This document shows, in pieces, positions 14,099 through 23,260 of a stretch of 24,583 nt of DNA. Positions within the stretch are counted from its first letter, which is position 1. The number at the start of each line of letters is the position of its first letter. A program made the position numbers and the translations under genes. The DNA comes from a virus, in the IMG/VR virus record IMGVR_UViG_3300030109_002952, positions 24,749 to 49,331 of that record, one strand, 5' to 3'. Below the pieces are notes generated by a model. The model saw only the letters and a program-made list of their open reading frames with translations, did not search any database and was not told where the DNA came from.

Positions 14099-14830
14099 TT
14101 ATAATGTTAAGTTAATAAAATATTGTGATGGGTCAAATCCATCTGTCTTGTAGAATAAATCGTAAGCTTCTACTGCTCTCTTAACCTTGTCCTTACCTGA
14201 TTCTAAAAAATCTGGTGAACAATCCACTACTGCTATTTGATGTGTATTTTTATCAATAACAATAAAACAAAAATCATAACCAAATAGTGTACTATATATG
14301 TATGCCTGTGAGTCATAATTCCAACGGTAAGCAGAGCGCTTGAAAGAATTTATGTCTGAGGTAGTCTTCAAATCAATCACGAGTTTTTCATCATGATTAA
14401 TTATATCAGCCTTACCTTTCCACATTAAACCTTCAAGCTCTGCAATACCTGGCTTCTCATACTCAACATCAATACCGCGAATAAGTCCGCGACATATATC
14501 ATTTTCTAATACTTTTTCGGTCATTAAATAAATCTTGTCAACTTCATGTTGTAGTAAACACAACTCTCCGTTTGACATTTCTTTATATGCCTTAGTGTTT
14601 CTAGTAGACGCTTCTATTATCTTAAACTTCTTAAGCTTATCTGGCTCAAGTATAGCAGTGTGAAAATAGCCGCCTACTAAAAACGCTGGGCTTGGTTTGG
14701 ATGGTTGTCCAAGGGCTAAGGGGTTAGTTAATAAAGTTCCAATATCAGAATTACTTAAATACTTTTTACCAAAGTCTCCATAGTAATGTTCATCAATTCT
14801 TAACTTTTCAATAACCTTTTCTTTTTCCAT
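14099..14830 (-). CDS. RecE/Exo VIII-type PD-(D/E)XK exonuclease
   Basis: The 243-residue protein shows YLSNSDIGTLLTNP, an early FLVGGYFHTAILEP (conserved His of the family), GKADIINHDEKLVIDLKTT (the D...DxK core) and YDSQAYIYS (motif IV Gln-Tyr). This order matches PDDEXK-like exonucleases of the RecE C-terminal/DUF3799 group, which resect double-stranded DNA ends. The ERF-family annealing protein is encoded just upstream, forming a standard phage two-component recombination pair. The ATG follows directly on a promoter-like motif (14831-14865), so the mRNA may be nearly leaderless. Confidence 0.87.
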   Translation of the reverse strand: MEKEKVIEKLRIDEHYYGDFGKKYLSNSDIGTLLTNPLALGQPSKPSPAFLVGGYFHTAILEPDKLKKFKIIEASTRNTKAYKEMSNGELCLLQHEVDKIYLMTEKVLENDICRGLIRGIDVEYEKPGIAELEGLMWKGKADIINHDEKLVIDLKTTSDINSFKRSAYRWNYDSQAYIYSTLFGYDFCFIVIDKNTHQIAVVDCSPDFLESGKDKVKRAVEAYDLFYKTDGFDPSQYFINLTL

Positions 14831-14865: not shown

Positions 14866-15405
14866 TTATACAGCTTTACTTAATGTTGAAAGCTGACCGG
14901 GTGTTAAATCATATTTAGCTTTTATAGATTCTAATTTCCCGCCTGCTTTTAAATAATCAATTGCTTTAGTTACATCACTAAGTATCTGTTTAGTCTTTTT
15001 AGATGCAGCTTTGCCATGATTATTTGTAGCATCACTATCTTGTGTATCGTCAATTAATAATAGGTTTCCTAACGCATATTTTTTTGCATAACTCGACGCT
15101 GACCCAAATTGTTGTGGAGTCTGCATACCTTTTTGGTTGAGGTCCACGCCAACTATCGCAACAGCAGTTAATTCCATACCTTTATCATCAGTTAACCTTG
15201 CGGTCGACTGTATAATAGGCATAGGTTCTGTAGCAATTAATTCTTCATTAATTGTAACTGCAATTCCTAACTCGTCGTTAAACGGTTTAATAGCTTCGAG
15301 AATGTCTTCGGCTGAGCGAAAGTAATATTTGCCGAATGAATTAAATCTACTCTTCTTCGATTTAAATTTTGTTTGAATTTTTGCTAGTTTTTGGTATATG
15401 GTCAT
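14866..15405 (-). CDS. ERF-family single-strand annealing protein
   Basis: The 179-residue product has the ERF core: GKYYFRSAEDILEAIKP at the N-terminus, TARLTDDKGMELTAVAIVG in the middle, and QQFGSASSYAKKYALGNLL followed by DDTQDSD, the conserved signature of the family. ERF proteins anneal complementary single strands during phage recombination and concatemer formation. It pairs with the RecE-type exonuclease downstream; a promoter-like motif separates the two, so they may also be expressed independently. The C-terminal 45 residues are a helical extension. Confidence 0.92.
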   Translation of the reverse strand: MTIYQKLAKIQTKFKSKKSRFNSFGKYYFRSAEDILEAIKPFNDELGIAVTINEELIATEPMPIIQSTARLTDDKGMELTAVAIVGVDLNQKGMQTPQQFGSASSYAKKYALGNLLLIDDTQDSDATNNHGKAASKKTKQILSDVTKAIDYLKAGGKLESIKAKYDLTPGQLSTLSKAV

Positions 15406-15459: not shown

Positions 15460-16224
15460 TTATAGGTAATCAAGCACTTGCGAGGAATCAACATTATTAA
15501 TTAAACACTGTATAGCATCCCGTTTTATCTGCGAGATACGTACATGAGCAGTGGTAACATTGATGTCTAGCTTGGCTGCAATTTCATTTGCAGAGTGCTT
15601 ATCACAGTCAAGGCCGTAGCTTAATCGCAACACCTCATACTGCTTAAAATCTAAATGCTTTTTCATTAGTTGTAGTAAATAAGCATTGAGTAAATGTATG
15701 TTATATGGTTCTGATTTATCAACAACTTGATAAGCCATATTTTCATCATCATTGGGTTTATCATCAATACTTGCAAATACACTATTAAAAAACATAGCAA
15801 CCATTTTTTCATTATCAGGGTTGCGTCTTATTTCATTTAGTTTATGTTCAGGGATGCGTACGCCGCCTCTATTAATGTCTACGGCTCTCCGTATCGCGCC
15901 CTTAATTCTTTTAGATAGAAATGACTTAATTGTTTTTTCTTGGTCATCAGAATTCTTTAATGTTTCTCTATCTATTTTACTAGAAGCAGCGGTTAATCCA
16001 TATCCACCTTCTTGTAGTAAATCATTTATACTTAATACACCTGATGCTTGGTCAGATGTTGATTGTTTTCTTGCTAGTGTTTCAACTAGCGGTAAAAAGT
16101 TGATTACTATTTCTTCATTTGTTAAATGTGTATAATCACCATTAATTGGTTTTCTAACTCGTTTAACAGCTTCCTCAACTTCTTTTTTATACCTAACATA
16201 GTTAGCTATATTATATTTTCTCAT
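15460..16224 (-). CDS. Phage-encoded sigma-70-family factor
   Basis: The 254-residue protein shows region 2 (NFLPLVETLARKQST, then SINDLLQEGGYGL, FLSKRIKGAIRRAVD and an RIPEHKLNEIR segment like the end of region 2/3) and region 4 with a helix-turn-helix (QYEVLRLSYGLDCDKHSANE, then IAAKLDINVTTAHVRISQIK). It should direct host RNA polymerase to a subset of promoters. The eight-copy two-box motif of this window is an attractive target, but late plus-strand promoters are an equally valid possibility. Its ATG overlaps the upstream HTH gene by 4 nt (ATGA), indicating coupling. Confidence 0.88.
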   Translation of the reverse strand: MRKYNIANYVRYKKEVEEAVKRVRKPINGDYTHLTNEEIVINFLPLVETLARKQSTSDQASGVLSINDLLQEGGYGLTAASSKIDRETLKNSDDQEKTIKSFLSKRIKGAIRRAVDINRGGVRIPEHKLNEIRRNPDNEKMVAMFFNSVFASIDDKPNDDENMAYQVVDKSEPYNIHLLNAYLLQLMKKHLDFKQYEVLRLSYGLDCDKHSANEIAAKLDINVTTAHVRISQIKRDAIQCLINNVDSSQVLDYL

Positions 16225-18512: not shown

Positions 18513-18810
18513 ATTCTATATCTTCGTTATTAGTTACCATCCATTCGCAATCACCTAGTTTGTGACCAGCACCTAATAAAAATGCTTCACAAGATTCATG
18601 GTCTGGATTCCATTCGTTTTTTTCGTTACATAATGCTCTAATATTATATTTATATACTTTACCGTCGTTAAAGTCTAGTACAAATATATATTTAGTACGT
18701 TCAAATTTTTCAGTATAAGCCTCTTGTAATATTTCTTTCATAGACTTACCTTCATGACCCGGTCTTATATCCGTACCATGTTCTAATTCATATGCTTTAC
18801 TACTATTCAT
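18502..18810 (-). CDS. Hypothetical protein (102 aa)
   Basis: A mixed alpha/beta protein: N-terminal YELEHGTDIRPGHEGKSMKE, a beta segment KYIFVLDFNDGKVYKYNIRA, then CNEKNEWNPDHESCEAFLLG and a C-terminal acidic end. The strand pattern FVLDFNDGKVYKY suggests a small globular domain. It overlaps both neighbours by 8-11 nt, as expected inside one transcript. No family recognised. Confidence 0.72.
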   Translation of the reverse strand: MNSSKAYELEHGTDIRPGHEGKSMKEILQEAYTEKFERTKYIFVLDFNDGKVYKYNIRALCNEKNEWNPDHESCEAFLLGAGHKLGDCEWMVTNNEDIEYGN

Positions 18811-19261
18811 TTTCTTCTAATTTATATTCACCTGTGTCTAATAACTCATCTCTTTTTTCATTCATTAATTCCTCATATACATCTTGCCACCATTCTCCTA
18901 ATCTATGATTAAAATCATATTCCATATCACCCCATATATGATTTTCTATCCATACATTGCTACCACTAGTTAACTCATCTAATGCTCTGTCTGACCAGTC
19001 AGAATAATCTTCATAGTAGTAACCATCTTGTGATACATAAGGTTTATCTTCTTGAGTACACCAGAATATATCATAGCCATCATAAGTTGATTCACTATAT
19101 ATTTTTAAAGTCCATTTGTCATCTACAAAGTCACTTGTAGTGTCAAGGTTGCCGCCGTATTCTGACTCAATATATTCGAGTAGCCACGGTCCATCAGGCT
19201 CTTCCATAAAGCCATCTTGTTCTAAATGTTCGATGATTATTTCATCTGTTAAAATTTCCAT
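18803..19261 (-). CDS. Strongly acidic Trp/Tyr-rich protein (152 aa)
   Basis: About one third of the residues are Asp or Glu, with many Trp and Tyr (LLEYIESEYGG, DIFWCTQEDK, GYYYEDYSDWSD, IWGDMEYDFNH). Such acidic, aromatic small phage proteins sometimes mimic DNA and block host DNA-binding enzymes, for example restriction systems. That is only a hypothesis drawn from composition. It is the first protein gene downstream of the tRNA. The start at 19261 is preceded by an AT-rich leader. Confidence 0.72.
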   Translation of the reverse strand: MEILTDEIIIEHLEQDGFMEEPDGPWLLEYIESEYGGNLDTTSDFVDDKWTLKIYSESTYDGYDIFWCTQEDKPYVSQDGYYYEDYSDWSDRALDELTSGSNVWIENHIWGDMEYDFNHRLGEWWQDVYEELMNEKRDELLDTGEYKLEENE

Positions 19262-19282
19262 AATTAATTGGTTTTCAGTTAG

Positions 19283-19357
19283 TTGCGCGAGTAGGATTCG
19301 AACCTACGACCTCAGGGTTATGAGCCCTGCGAGCTGACCAAACTGCTCCATCGCGCT
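19283..19357 (-). tRNA. Initiator tRNA-fMet (CAT)
   Basis: A full cloverleaf folds on the minus strand: acceptor GCGCGA/TCGCGC, D-arm GAGC/GCTC, anticodon arm CAGGG-CTCATAA-CCCTG, T-arm GTAGG-TTCGAAT-CCTAC. Two initiator marks are present: an unpaired first acceptor pair (A1 with A72) and three consecutive G:C pairs in the anticodon stem (GGG/CCC). The 3' CCA is not encoded (CTA follows the discriminator A), so host CCA addition is needed. Confidence 0.93.
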
Positions 19358-19359
19358 AT

Positions 19360-19741
19360 AATATTTTAGGTGTGCTCGTATGTTTTTCGGTCGAGTAACA
19401 GCACCACACTCGTGCCCACACCTATAGTCTCGGGTCGCTCATATTATTTTACTGATGTAGTTGTATACGACTACCAATTTCAAATAATAGCGGTGCGCCT
19501 CCGACTTTAATATTTTCGGGGGAAGAAACCCCAGCAGTCTCTTCTTATTACAGGTGATTCACATATCGGCACTTAGTCCCTAATGTGATTTGTCTTGGGA
19601 GTCACCAACCCTTAAACGAGCCATTCACTTATGTAACTTCTCGGAGACATCCGGTAATCTTTCAACCGTTCCAACCGTTCGTCGTTCTAATTAAGCTACT
19701 CGTCTCTGTGTAACAAACACTAAACTTTGGTGTATAGCACC
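19360..19741 (-). ncRNA. Structured non-coding RNA candidate upstream of tRNA-fMet
   Basis: About 380 bases without an ORF on either strand that fits its neighbours, and with G+C near 43% by hand count, above the flanking genes. On the minus strand many stems are visible: GAGAC/GTCTC (19702-19706 with 19644-19648), CGGT/ACCG, GGTGA/TCACC (19602-19606 with 19553-19557) around TCACAT/ATGTGA, with TCCC and GGGA placed so that a pseudoknot could form; GGGG/CCCC near 19518-19532; GTAGT/ACTAC near 19457-19474; and GGTGTG/CACACC (19417-19422 with 19369-19374) enclosing CGAGT/ACTCG. GAACGGTTG is repeated in tandem (19663-19680). Strand is inferred from the adjacent tRNA and genes. It does not match tmRNA, RNase P or group I intron signatures that I could recognise. 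Confidence 0.55.
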
Positions 19742-19744
19742 GAA

Positions 19745-19942
19745 CTATAATTCTTTGTGATAGTTCAGCATATACTCAATTGTTCTTTTTAGTATTGCAT
19801 TTTTCATTTGCATATATTCGTCGCCTTCTAGCTTGTCAATACTTGTACCATCAACAGCCCAGTCAATTGAGTCATATATTTGTTCTATCATTACTTCATG
19901 CAAGTACTCTGCTATCCTGTCTATTTCTTTCATTTTACTCAT
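19745..19942 (-). CDS. Small helical protein (65 aa)
   Basis: An acidic, helical 65-residue protein (MKEIDRIAEYLHEVMIEQIY, then DSIDWAVDGTSIDKLEGDEY and KRTIEYMLNYHKEL). The ATG overlaps the preceding gene by 8 nt. No family recognised. It is the last protein gene before the structured non-coding stretch on this strand; the stem-loop GGTG-loop-CACC begins 4 bases after its stop. Confidence 0.68.
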   Translation of the reverse strand: MSKMKEIDRIAEYLHEVMIEQIYDSIDWAVDGTSIDKLEGDEYMQMKNAILKRTIEYMLNYHKEL

Positions 19943-22231: not shown

Positions 22232-22540
22232 TTACTTAACTTCAACTCTCTCTATTACAATCTCTCTTACATTACTAGGCATTCGAGTACTTTGAGACCA
22301 ATAACCTCTCTTCAACCAACATGGCATTATACTTAGCTTTGGTAACATTACTTTTAATACTTCATCATGGTTGTAAGTTACTTTTTCATTTTTGTTGTTA
22401 ATGAATGTTATTACTTGGTTACGTCCATACCATGATTTTCTTACTACAAAGTTTTTTCTGGTTATTGGTGGAAAAATTTCTTTTAGTTCTTTCTTACTTA
22501 ATTTACTAATTGCTTGATTTAATTTAGTGTTTGTTGTCAT
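22232..22540 (-). CDS. Hypothetical basic protein (102 aa)
   Basis: The product is mixed alpha/beta: N-terminal KLNQAISKLSKKELKEIFPP, then KNFVVRKSWYGRNQVITFIN, then PCWLKRGYWSQSTRMPSNVR. Its basic, strand-rich middle could be a small nucleic-acid-binding fold, but no family is recognised. It is preceded by promoter copy 6, about 40 nt upstream of the ATG, and followed by a stem-loop, so it looks like an independent transcription unit. Confidence 0.72.
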   Translation of the reverse strand: MTTNTKLNQAISKLSKKELKEIFPPITRKNFVVRKSWYGRNQVITFINNKNEKVTYNHDEVLKVMLPKLSIMPCWLKRGYWSQSTRMPSNVREIVIERVEVK

Positions 22541-22581
22541 AATTTAAAATTTAATTGTTATTATTATTATTTGTTATTTAC

Positions 22582-22609
22582 TATTATTATCGTCTTTATA
22601 TCGTATTTA
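22582..22609 (-). promoter_or_regulatory. Two-box promoter-like motif, copy 6
   Basis: Minus strand: TAAATACGA (22601-22609), 9 bases, GATAATAATA (22582-22591), a slightly diverged box 2. The TAA stop of the 48-aa gene (22607-22609) is the first codon of box 1. TACGAA lies one helical turn upstream. Confidence 0.68.
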
Positions 22610-22753
22610 CTTCGTAGGCATTGATAGTTTTATATTCCAGTCAATATTCTCAAACTCATCAAAATATTCTCCATCATAAAATATCTTCTCTAATATATTA
22701 TTTATCTGGTCAAATGTTAGTTCTGATTTAAATTCTACTGTTACTTCTTTCAT
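22607..22753 (-). CDS. Short acidic protein (48 aa)
   Basis: The frame from ATG 22753 to TAA 22607 encodes MKEVTVEFKSELTFDQINNI, then LEKIFYDGEYFDEFENIDWN and IKLSMPTK. It is an acidic beta-alpha type protein that looks foldable. The stop codon is inside promoter copy 6. No family recognised; support comes from reading-frame quality and from the same stop-in-promoter arrangement as neighbouring genes. Confidence 0.68.
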   Translation of the reverse strand: MKEVTVEFKSELTFDQINNILEKIFYDGEYFDEFENIDWNIKLSMPTK

Positions 22754-22789
22754 AGTTATTATATTTAATTGTTATTGTTATTTATTATA

Positions 22790-22966
22790 TTATTTATATA
22801 GTTTATATTTATAGTAATGTTTATTTAATAATTTAGTTAATAAATCAGTATTAATTGTATGAGTGAATATTAATTTATTATTTAATATTATAAAATTGTA
22901 ATGTAAGTTATTAATAATGAGTGATGATATTAATTTAATTTGGTATTTATTTAGTATTAGTTGCAT
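22790..22966 (-). CDS. Asn/Leu/Ile-rich small protein (58 aa)
   Basis: The ATG at 22966 lies 12 bases after promoter copy 7, and the frame stays open for 58 codons: MQLILNKYQIKLISSLIINN, LHYNFIILNNKLIFTHTINT, then a Lys/Tyr-rich end. The region is extremely AT-rich, so the composition follows the bases and the evidence for a folded protein is weak, but the promoter and the clean frame argue for expression. Confidence 0.5.
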   Translation of the reverse strand: MQLILNKYQIKLISSLIINNLHYNFIILNNKLIFTHTINTDLLTKLLNKHYYKYKLYK

Positions 22967-22977
22967 TGTTTTGTTTA

Positions 22978-23005
22978 TTATATTATCAGGTTAATGTCGT
23001 GTTTA
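22978..23005 (-). promoter_or_regulatory. Two-box promoter-like motif, copy 7
   Basis: Minus strand: TAAACACGA (22997-23005), 9 bases, GATAATATAA (22978-22987), then TAAACAAAACA and the ATG at 22966. The preceding gene's stop (23012) is just upstream. Confidence 0.73.
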
Positions 23006-23011
23006 CTTTGT

Positions 23012-23155
23012 TTATTTATTTGTATAAGACTTAATTAATTTATTTAAACTCTTTAAATTTTTAAGTTGATAGTGACAATAAAAATTATTGTTGAGGTTAA
23101 TTGTTAAGTCATATAGTTTAAATTTTTTGGAGTAGTAAATTGTGAATGAATACAT
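23012..23155 (-). CDS. Lys/Tyr/Asn-rich small protein (47 aa)
   Basis: The frame from ATG 23155 to TAA 23012 encodes MYSFTIYYSKKFKLYDLTIN, then LNNNFYCHYQLKNLKSLNKL and IKSYTNK. The first strand-like segment and the basic helix could fold. It is the first gene of the whole minus-strand block, 22 nt after promoter copy 8, so probably among the earliest expressed. No family recognised. Confidence 0.55.
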   Translation of the reverse strand: MYSFTIYYSKKFKLYDLTINLNNNFYCHYQLKNLKSLNKLIKSYTNK

Positions 23156-23177
23156 AGTTGTTATTTATTTGTTACAT

Positions 23178-23205
23178 ATATATTATCACCAAAGTCCCGT
23201 ATTTG
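23178..23205 (-). promoter_or_regulatory. Two-box promoter-like motif, copy 8
   Basis: Minus strand: CAAATACGG (23197-23205; two differences from consensus), 9 bases, GATAATATAT (23178-23187), then ATGTAACAAATAAATAA. It is the first copy of the block and faces away from the divergent control region. Confidence 0.68.
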
Positions 23206-23260
23206 TATTGTAATTGATGAGGAGAAATACGTTCGGCGTCGAGACCTTGCGTAGTTACGA

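Follow-up and report, generated by a model that had tools for sequence, protein, structure and literature searches.

A structured RNA upstream of tRNA-fMet in an uncultured phage, probably composed of modules that are exchanged between phages

Does the 387-nt gap on the 5' side of a tRNA-fMet gene in an uncultured phage encode a structured RNA, and if so, what kind of RNA is it? This question is raised by the window analysed here, the 24,583-nt stretch at positions 24,749-49,331 of the record IMGVR_UViG_3300030109_002952. All coordinates are relative to the window unless a related locus (L and a number) is named. The source record is a 49.3-kb IMG/VR virus of marine type that encodes terminase, portal and virion proteins, and also ribonucleotide reductase, primase/helicase, thymidylate synthase, exonuclease VIII and an Erf-like annealing protein. 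Its primase is nearest to that of Cellulophaga phage phi10:1 (43%), and a Shine-Dalgarno-like motif was found in only one of 27 phage genes; both observations fit a Flavobacteriia-type host. A sigma-factor-like protein is encoded at 15460-16224, and a very A+T-rich segment (22501-23250, GC 0.18-0.19) shows a sharp rise in GC skew where two gene blocks meet. The gap lies between an ORF and a tRNA-Met gene, with the minus strand used throughout (Table 1). This tRNA is the initiator, as the earlier note on this DNA had claimed, because it has the A1:A72 mismatch, the GGG/CCC anticodon stem, A11:U24 and a CAT anticodon.

Table 1. Features of the RNA locus, of its neighbours and of related loci.
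Feature	Position	Strand	Remark
Structured RNA region, entire	19358..19744	-	387-nt gap; adjoins tRNA-fMet on its 5' side
M1 5' strand, GACGAGTAGCTTAATTAG	19687..19704	-	near-identical core, 74 instances
M18, insert within M1, carries tandem AACGGTTG	19632..19686	-	also in tmRNA-like domains of L029 and L155
M1 3' strand, CATAAGTGAATGGCTCGT	19616..19633	-	M1 core
M17: GGUGA/UCACC, inner CACAU/AUGUG, GGGG/CCCC hairpin	19510..19612	-	99% identical to L162 over the exact span
M3: GUCGGAGGCGCACCGCUA ... UAUGAGCGACCCGAGAC	19427..19505	-	96% identical to L008; outer helix covaries
Insert within M3: hairpin with UGAAA/CAGUAA internal loop	19442..19489	-	common to L008
M20: three-way junction, two hairpins	19367..19424	-	covariation; 3' end module
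tRNA-fMet (initiator)	19282..19357	-	CCA not encoded
65-aa ORF, upstream of RNA	19745..19942	-	no family match
152-aa ORF, downstream of RNA	18803..19261	-	no family match; query for finding relatives
Exonuclease VIII (RecE-like)	14099..14830	-	candidate agent of module exchange
Erf-like single-strand annealing protein	14866..15405	-	candidate agent of module exchange
tmRNA-like domains with exchangeable modules at the centre	L163:1112-1192, L162:9426-9511, L044:1390-1480, L167:3729-3834, others		

The gap is richer in GC than its surroundings, as had been noticed from the sequence; at 0.426, its GC content exceeds the window value of 0.324, and about 1% of 387-nt windows are as rich. The outer GGTGTG/CACACC stem described earlier is present at 19424-19367, and so is the tandem repeat, two copies of AACGGTTG starting at 19679 and 19670. 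Each copy supplies the 5' strand of its own helix within M18, and both helices change in step in L029 and L155, as judged by eye. The earlier note had also seen nested complementary arms. Folding of the single sequence gave z -1.52 for the minus strand and z -0.91 for the plus strand; because this energy is unremarkable and lies within chance, the case for an RNA rests on the homologues, and it is their covariation that shows the arms to be real. The covariation check that had been proposed gave a strong signal: in M20, both partners have changed in 13 of the 17 pairs, and every cell is paired (100%), compared with 24-45% in slid controls. The possible pseudoknot (GAGU/ACUC) did not survive the comparison. 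This pairing is lost in two of six homologues, L162 and L190, while a rival hairpin is maintained by compensation (CUCG/CGAG, CUUG/CAAG or CCCG/CGGG), and the pseudoknot is therefore unsupported and was rejected. An RNA on the plus strand was rejected because of its weaker fold and because the asymmetry of G-U over A-C (20 versus 5 in M1 helices) favours the minus strand. A coding role was also rejected, since the longest stop-free stretch on the RNA strand is 39 aa and the gap holds no long ORF. A relaxed Rfam search, likewise proposed earlier, matched no family to the RNA, so that a group I intron, RNase P and other known RNAs were rejected. Thus, the minus strand at 19358-19744 encodes a structured, non-coding RNA that matches no Rfam family.

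Relatives were collected with the 152-aa downstream protein as query, which gave 11 contigs, some with a clearly related RNA at the equivalent place, and with patterns of conserved blocks, which gave about 80 further real IMG/VR contigs, for a total of about 90 phage contigs. L034 was a chance match and was dropped, and pattern scans for M3 gave matches mostly by chance. All relatives are metagenomic contigs, and module boundaries were drawn partly by eye; as some contigs come from related samples, the instances are not fully independent. A pattern scan for M1 over 84,980 bacterial and archaeal genomes matched a single contig of 6.7 kb, binned as Ilumatobacteraceae, which is likely a phage. 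Searches of the INPHARED phages matched only the tRNA and not the RNA itself. These results suggest that, as far as searched, the RNA is a feature of uncultured phages, and it was not described in the literature searched (open PMC papers only).

The RNA of the window reads M1 with M18 inserted, M17, M3 with a loop-E-like hairpin inserted, M20 and tRNA-fMet, in this order. Inside M1 lies a slot; the core of the module is near-invariant, and its outer helix varies. The core has the general form GACGAGTAG[C/G]TTAATTAG ... ACATAA[G/C]TGAATNGC and is almost invariant among its 74 instances. At the variable position, C occurs in 58 and G in 16, and the partner is complementary in all 74, although the search pattern permitted either letter at either side, mismatches included. 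Hence this helix (CUUA/UAAG or GUUA/UAAC) covaries without exception. The inner helix is paired in 85% of cells compared with 52% in shuffles, and the outer helix in 90% compared with 74% after shuffling; in the window and a few other instances, the closing helix is ACGAG/CUCGU instead. The 73 inserts found in the M1 slot fall into 34 unrelated families, about 19 of which are also known from other contexts, where they are nested within other modules or lie inside tmRNA-like tRNA domains. A tRNA-Met lies within 1 kb downstream on the same strand in 32 of the 74 M1 loci and is antisense in none. A 62-aa protein with four cysteines precedes the core at about 40 of the 74 M1 loci; the distance from its end to the core is 1-127 nt (mostly 1-10), and its stop codon is sometimes inside the M1 outer helix. 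This protein (L008:3179-3367, L038:4332-4520 and 36 more) has a CxC...CxxC pattern and an invariant VHxxWRRK end, and by eye it is similar to a DksA/TraR-type zinc finger. Neither Pfam nor PHROG gave a match above threshold, and the predicted model of the Zn-ribbon-like protein (pLDDT 68) was too uncertain for a fold search. A search of the window genome found neither this protein nor a tmRNA-like domain. At L019, L042, L043 and other loci, TAAATACGAA-N-GGATAATATAAT recurs before start codons, upstream of many small genes, and is likely a phage promoter.

The other modules are found in fewer relatives. Since M17 and M18 have three to five homologues each, their structure is weakly tested; the inner hairpin of M17 is replaced in L215. 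M3 has the general form GCGCACCGCTA ... TATGAGCGACYCGAG, and its nine instances combine invariant strands with several different inserts, while its outer helix appears as GUC/GAC, ACC/GGU or UAC/GUA. The internal loop of the hairpin inserted in M3 of the window resembles a loop E (bulged-G) motif, a name given by eye. In a different phage (L131:9590-10500, minus strand), M3 belongs to an RNA that ends in a terminator and also contains tandem repeats of another module, GAGTTGCAAGACACATCATAAAATT...AATATAGTGTAAACCACCTCAA. M20 is also found in L140, L162, L167, L172 and L190. In L167 it lies inside a tmRNA-like domain, and there nearly all of its outer helix has a changed sequence with the pairing kept.

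Comparison by Blast showed that the nearest relative of the window RNA differs from stretch to stretch: it is L002 at the start of M1, L029 and L155 in M18, L015 and L204 from M1 to M17, L162 in M17, L008 in M3, and L162 and L190 in M20. The identity of M17 with L162 extends over exactly 103 nt, whereas outside M17 the two are mostly 71-76% identical (about 84% over M20 and the tRNA). L002 is the closest phage, with about 90% identity over 9 kb and in the flanking genes; yet in the interval from the M1 5' strand to the tRNA, the one part that it clearly has in common with the window is the M1 3' strand. Furthermore, L174, L186 and L157 have flanks that are 98.5-99% identical (98.5-98.8% for the pairs L174/L186 and L157/L186), but the M1 insert of L186 is unrelated to that of L174 and L157, and a refilled M9 slot with a long insert is seen in L157 alone. 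Of the 17 phage pairs whose flanks share 85% identity or more, 11 carry inserts from different families. Modules are also found in different hosts, where host means the enclosing RNA context: M5, M6, M7, M12 and M13 each occur in at least two. M5 occurs in M1, M4, M9 or M13 or alone, M6 in tRNA-like domains, in M9 or alone, and M7 in M2 or M3. These comparisons show that modules are often exchanged, within limits set by structure. The locus appears to be an RNA cassette system that recombines and is hypervariable, carried by phages with a Flavobacteriia-type host.

The tRNA-like domains of the relatives resemble a known RNA, tmRNA. They have the form GGGCGUGAAAUGG-[module]-CGCAGGUUCGAUUCCUGCCACGUCC-A, span about 80-140 nt and match the tmRNA model RF00023 at both ends with 32-66 bits, one of them exceeding the gathering threshold of 47. 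The G3-U70 acceptor pair, which is the alanine identity element, and A73 are present. No tag reading frame was seen by eye, and the RF00023 matches cover only these 80-140 nt, with an insert that differs from module to module; a very short frame may still be present. The domains differ from tmRNA (ssrA) in that exchangeable modules appear to occupy the place of the tag frame. Marine phages such as Melnitz carry ssrA genes for complete one- or two-piece tmRNAs (PMC9004378), whereas the relatives described here show the tRNA-like part only. A tmRNA match is absent from the whole 49-kb window record. Mini tRNA-like elements with only an acceptor and a T arm, joined by a GCTACGGTACTAA linker, were seen at L011:3050-3090 and in L027, L028, L030, L049 and L140, alone or within M1; they are a minimal RNase P type substrate.

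GOLLD and ROOL are ornate phage RNAs near tRNAs, and the GOLLD example studied, from a marine sample, lies downstream of a Met-tRNA (PMC12286853). It is possible, but not favoured by us, that the window RNA is of this type and forms a homo-oligomeric particle with the modules as peripheral helices. It is likewise phage-encoded, ornate and adjoins a tRNA, GOLLD combines a conserved 3' with a variable 5' part, and ROOL is an elaborately structured RNA of phages and prophages near tRNA islands (PMC12286853). However, GOLLD is about 800 nt long (PMC12286853), and the 387 nt between ORF and tRNA are about half of this. The GOLLD and ROOL covariance models matched nothing in relaxed cmscans of the window and 31 related loci. 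Of the earlier proposal, a new class beside tRNA-fMet or a small GOLLD/ROOL member, the new class agrees with the absence of Rfam matches and the strong covariation, while membership of either family is not borne out. ROOL is reported as a single class with a defined fold, whereas RNAs of the window type consist of modules that change order and host between phages, with no fixed overall architecture. GOLLD is a 14-mer nanocage and ROOL an oligomeric nanocage; an architecture that varies between phages, as predicted here from sequence, would hardly be tolerable for a symmetric cage.

Three further explanations have to be weighed against a modular, exchanging RNA. The gap could hold chance complementarity and no functional RNA, in keeping with a folding energy of just z -1.5, but covariation beyond shuffled and slid controls and an M1 core conserved across 74 loci make this very hard to believe. 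The RNA might simply be an extended leader belonging to the tRNA-fMet precursor, or a cis-regulatory UTR, whose hairpins are filler for adjusting processing or stability. It does adjoin the 5' side of the tRNA, both in the window and in many relatives; on the other hand, the modules of several relatives have no tRNA-fMet nearby or are followed by tmRNA-like domains, and module sequences are conserved far beyond what filler would lead one to expect, so this reading is improbable. The modules might also be selfish or mobile hairpin elements of RNA, spreading by insertion into RNA loops and useless to the phage; this would explain why nesting is precise, host contexts are many and replacement is rapid. 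We consider this unlikely, because neither a mobility gene nor a target duplication was noticed, all insertions seen lay inside RNA arrays, and cores both conserved and compensated are unneeded in a neutral passenger. A modular, exchanging non-coding RNA upstream of tRNA-fMet is therefore the best explanation of the whole, and we hold it to be rather likely.

Such an RNA would fold as a string of autonomous modules separated by A/U-rich linkers, and for M1, M3 and M20 covariation shows the helices. Each module would be an open-ended two-strand motif whose loop serves as a slot for a further hairpin or module. The RNA and tRNA-fMet probably come from one precursor, from which tRNA-processing enzymes would release the RNA. 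Related phages would draw on a common pool to refill the slots through recombination; the exchange itself is seen in the comparison of phages, and it may be carried out by the phage RecE and Erf proteins with the conserved cores as short homologies or anchors. As the most likely use, the constant scaffold modules may present changing hairpins to RNA-binding or RNA-cleaving factors of the host. Turnover this fast looks like an arms race, so a first guess is that the hairpins act as decoys, either against host defences that keep changing or against translation factors; a scaffold function of this kind is put forward only tentatively. The invariant cores could be kept for a function other than insert presentation. 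A broader proposal, for which we see the case as evenly balanced, is that marine Flavobacteriia phages share a recombining pool of RNA modules that very rapidly refills scaffolds and tag-less tmRNA-like domains, and that this is a diversifying system of host interaction.

The large phage RNAs known so far, GOLLD and ROOL, have a recognisable fold, whereas here the unit of inheritance would be the helical module. Such a modular, exchanging architecture is beyond what the earlier reading of a single sequence could reveal, and the modules with covariation support are many and available for structural work. The purpose of ornate phage RNAs beside tRNAs becomes testable. If the explanation is true, this would be a natural combinatorial RNA architecture with rapid horizontal exchange below the level of the gene, drawn from a pool comparable to gene cassettes but operating at the level of the RNA helix.
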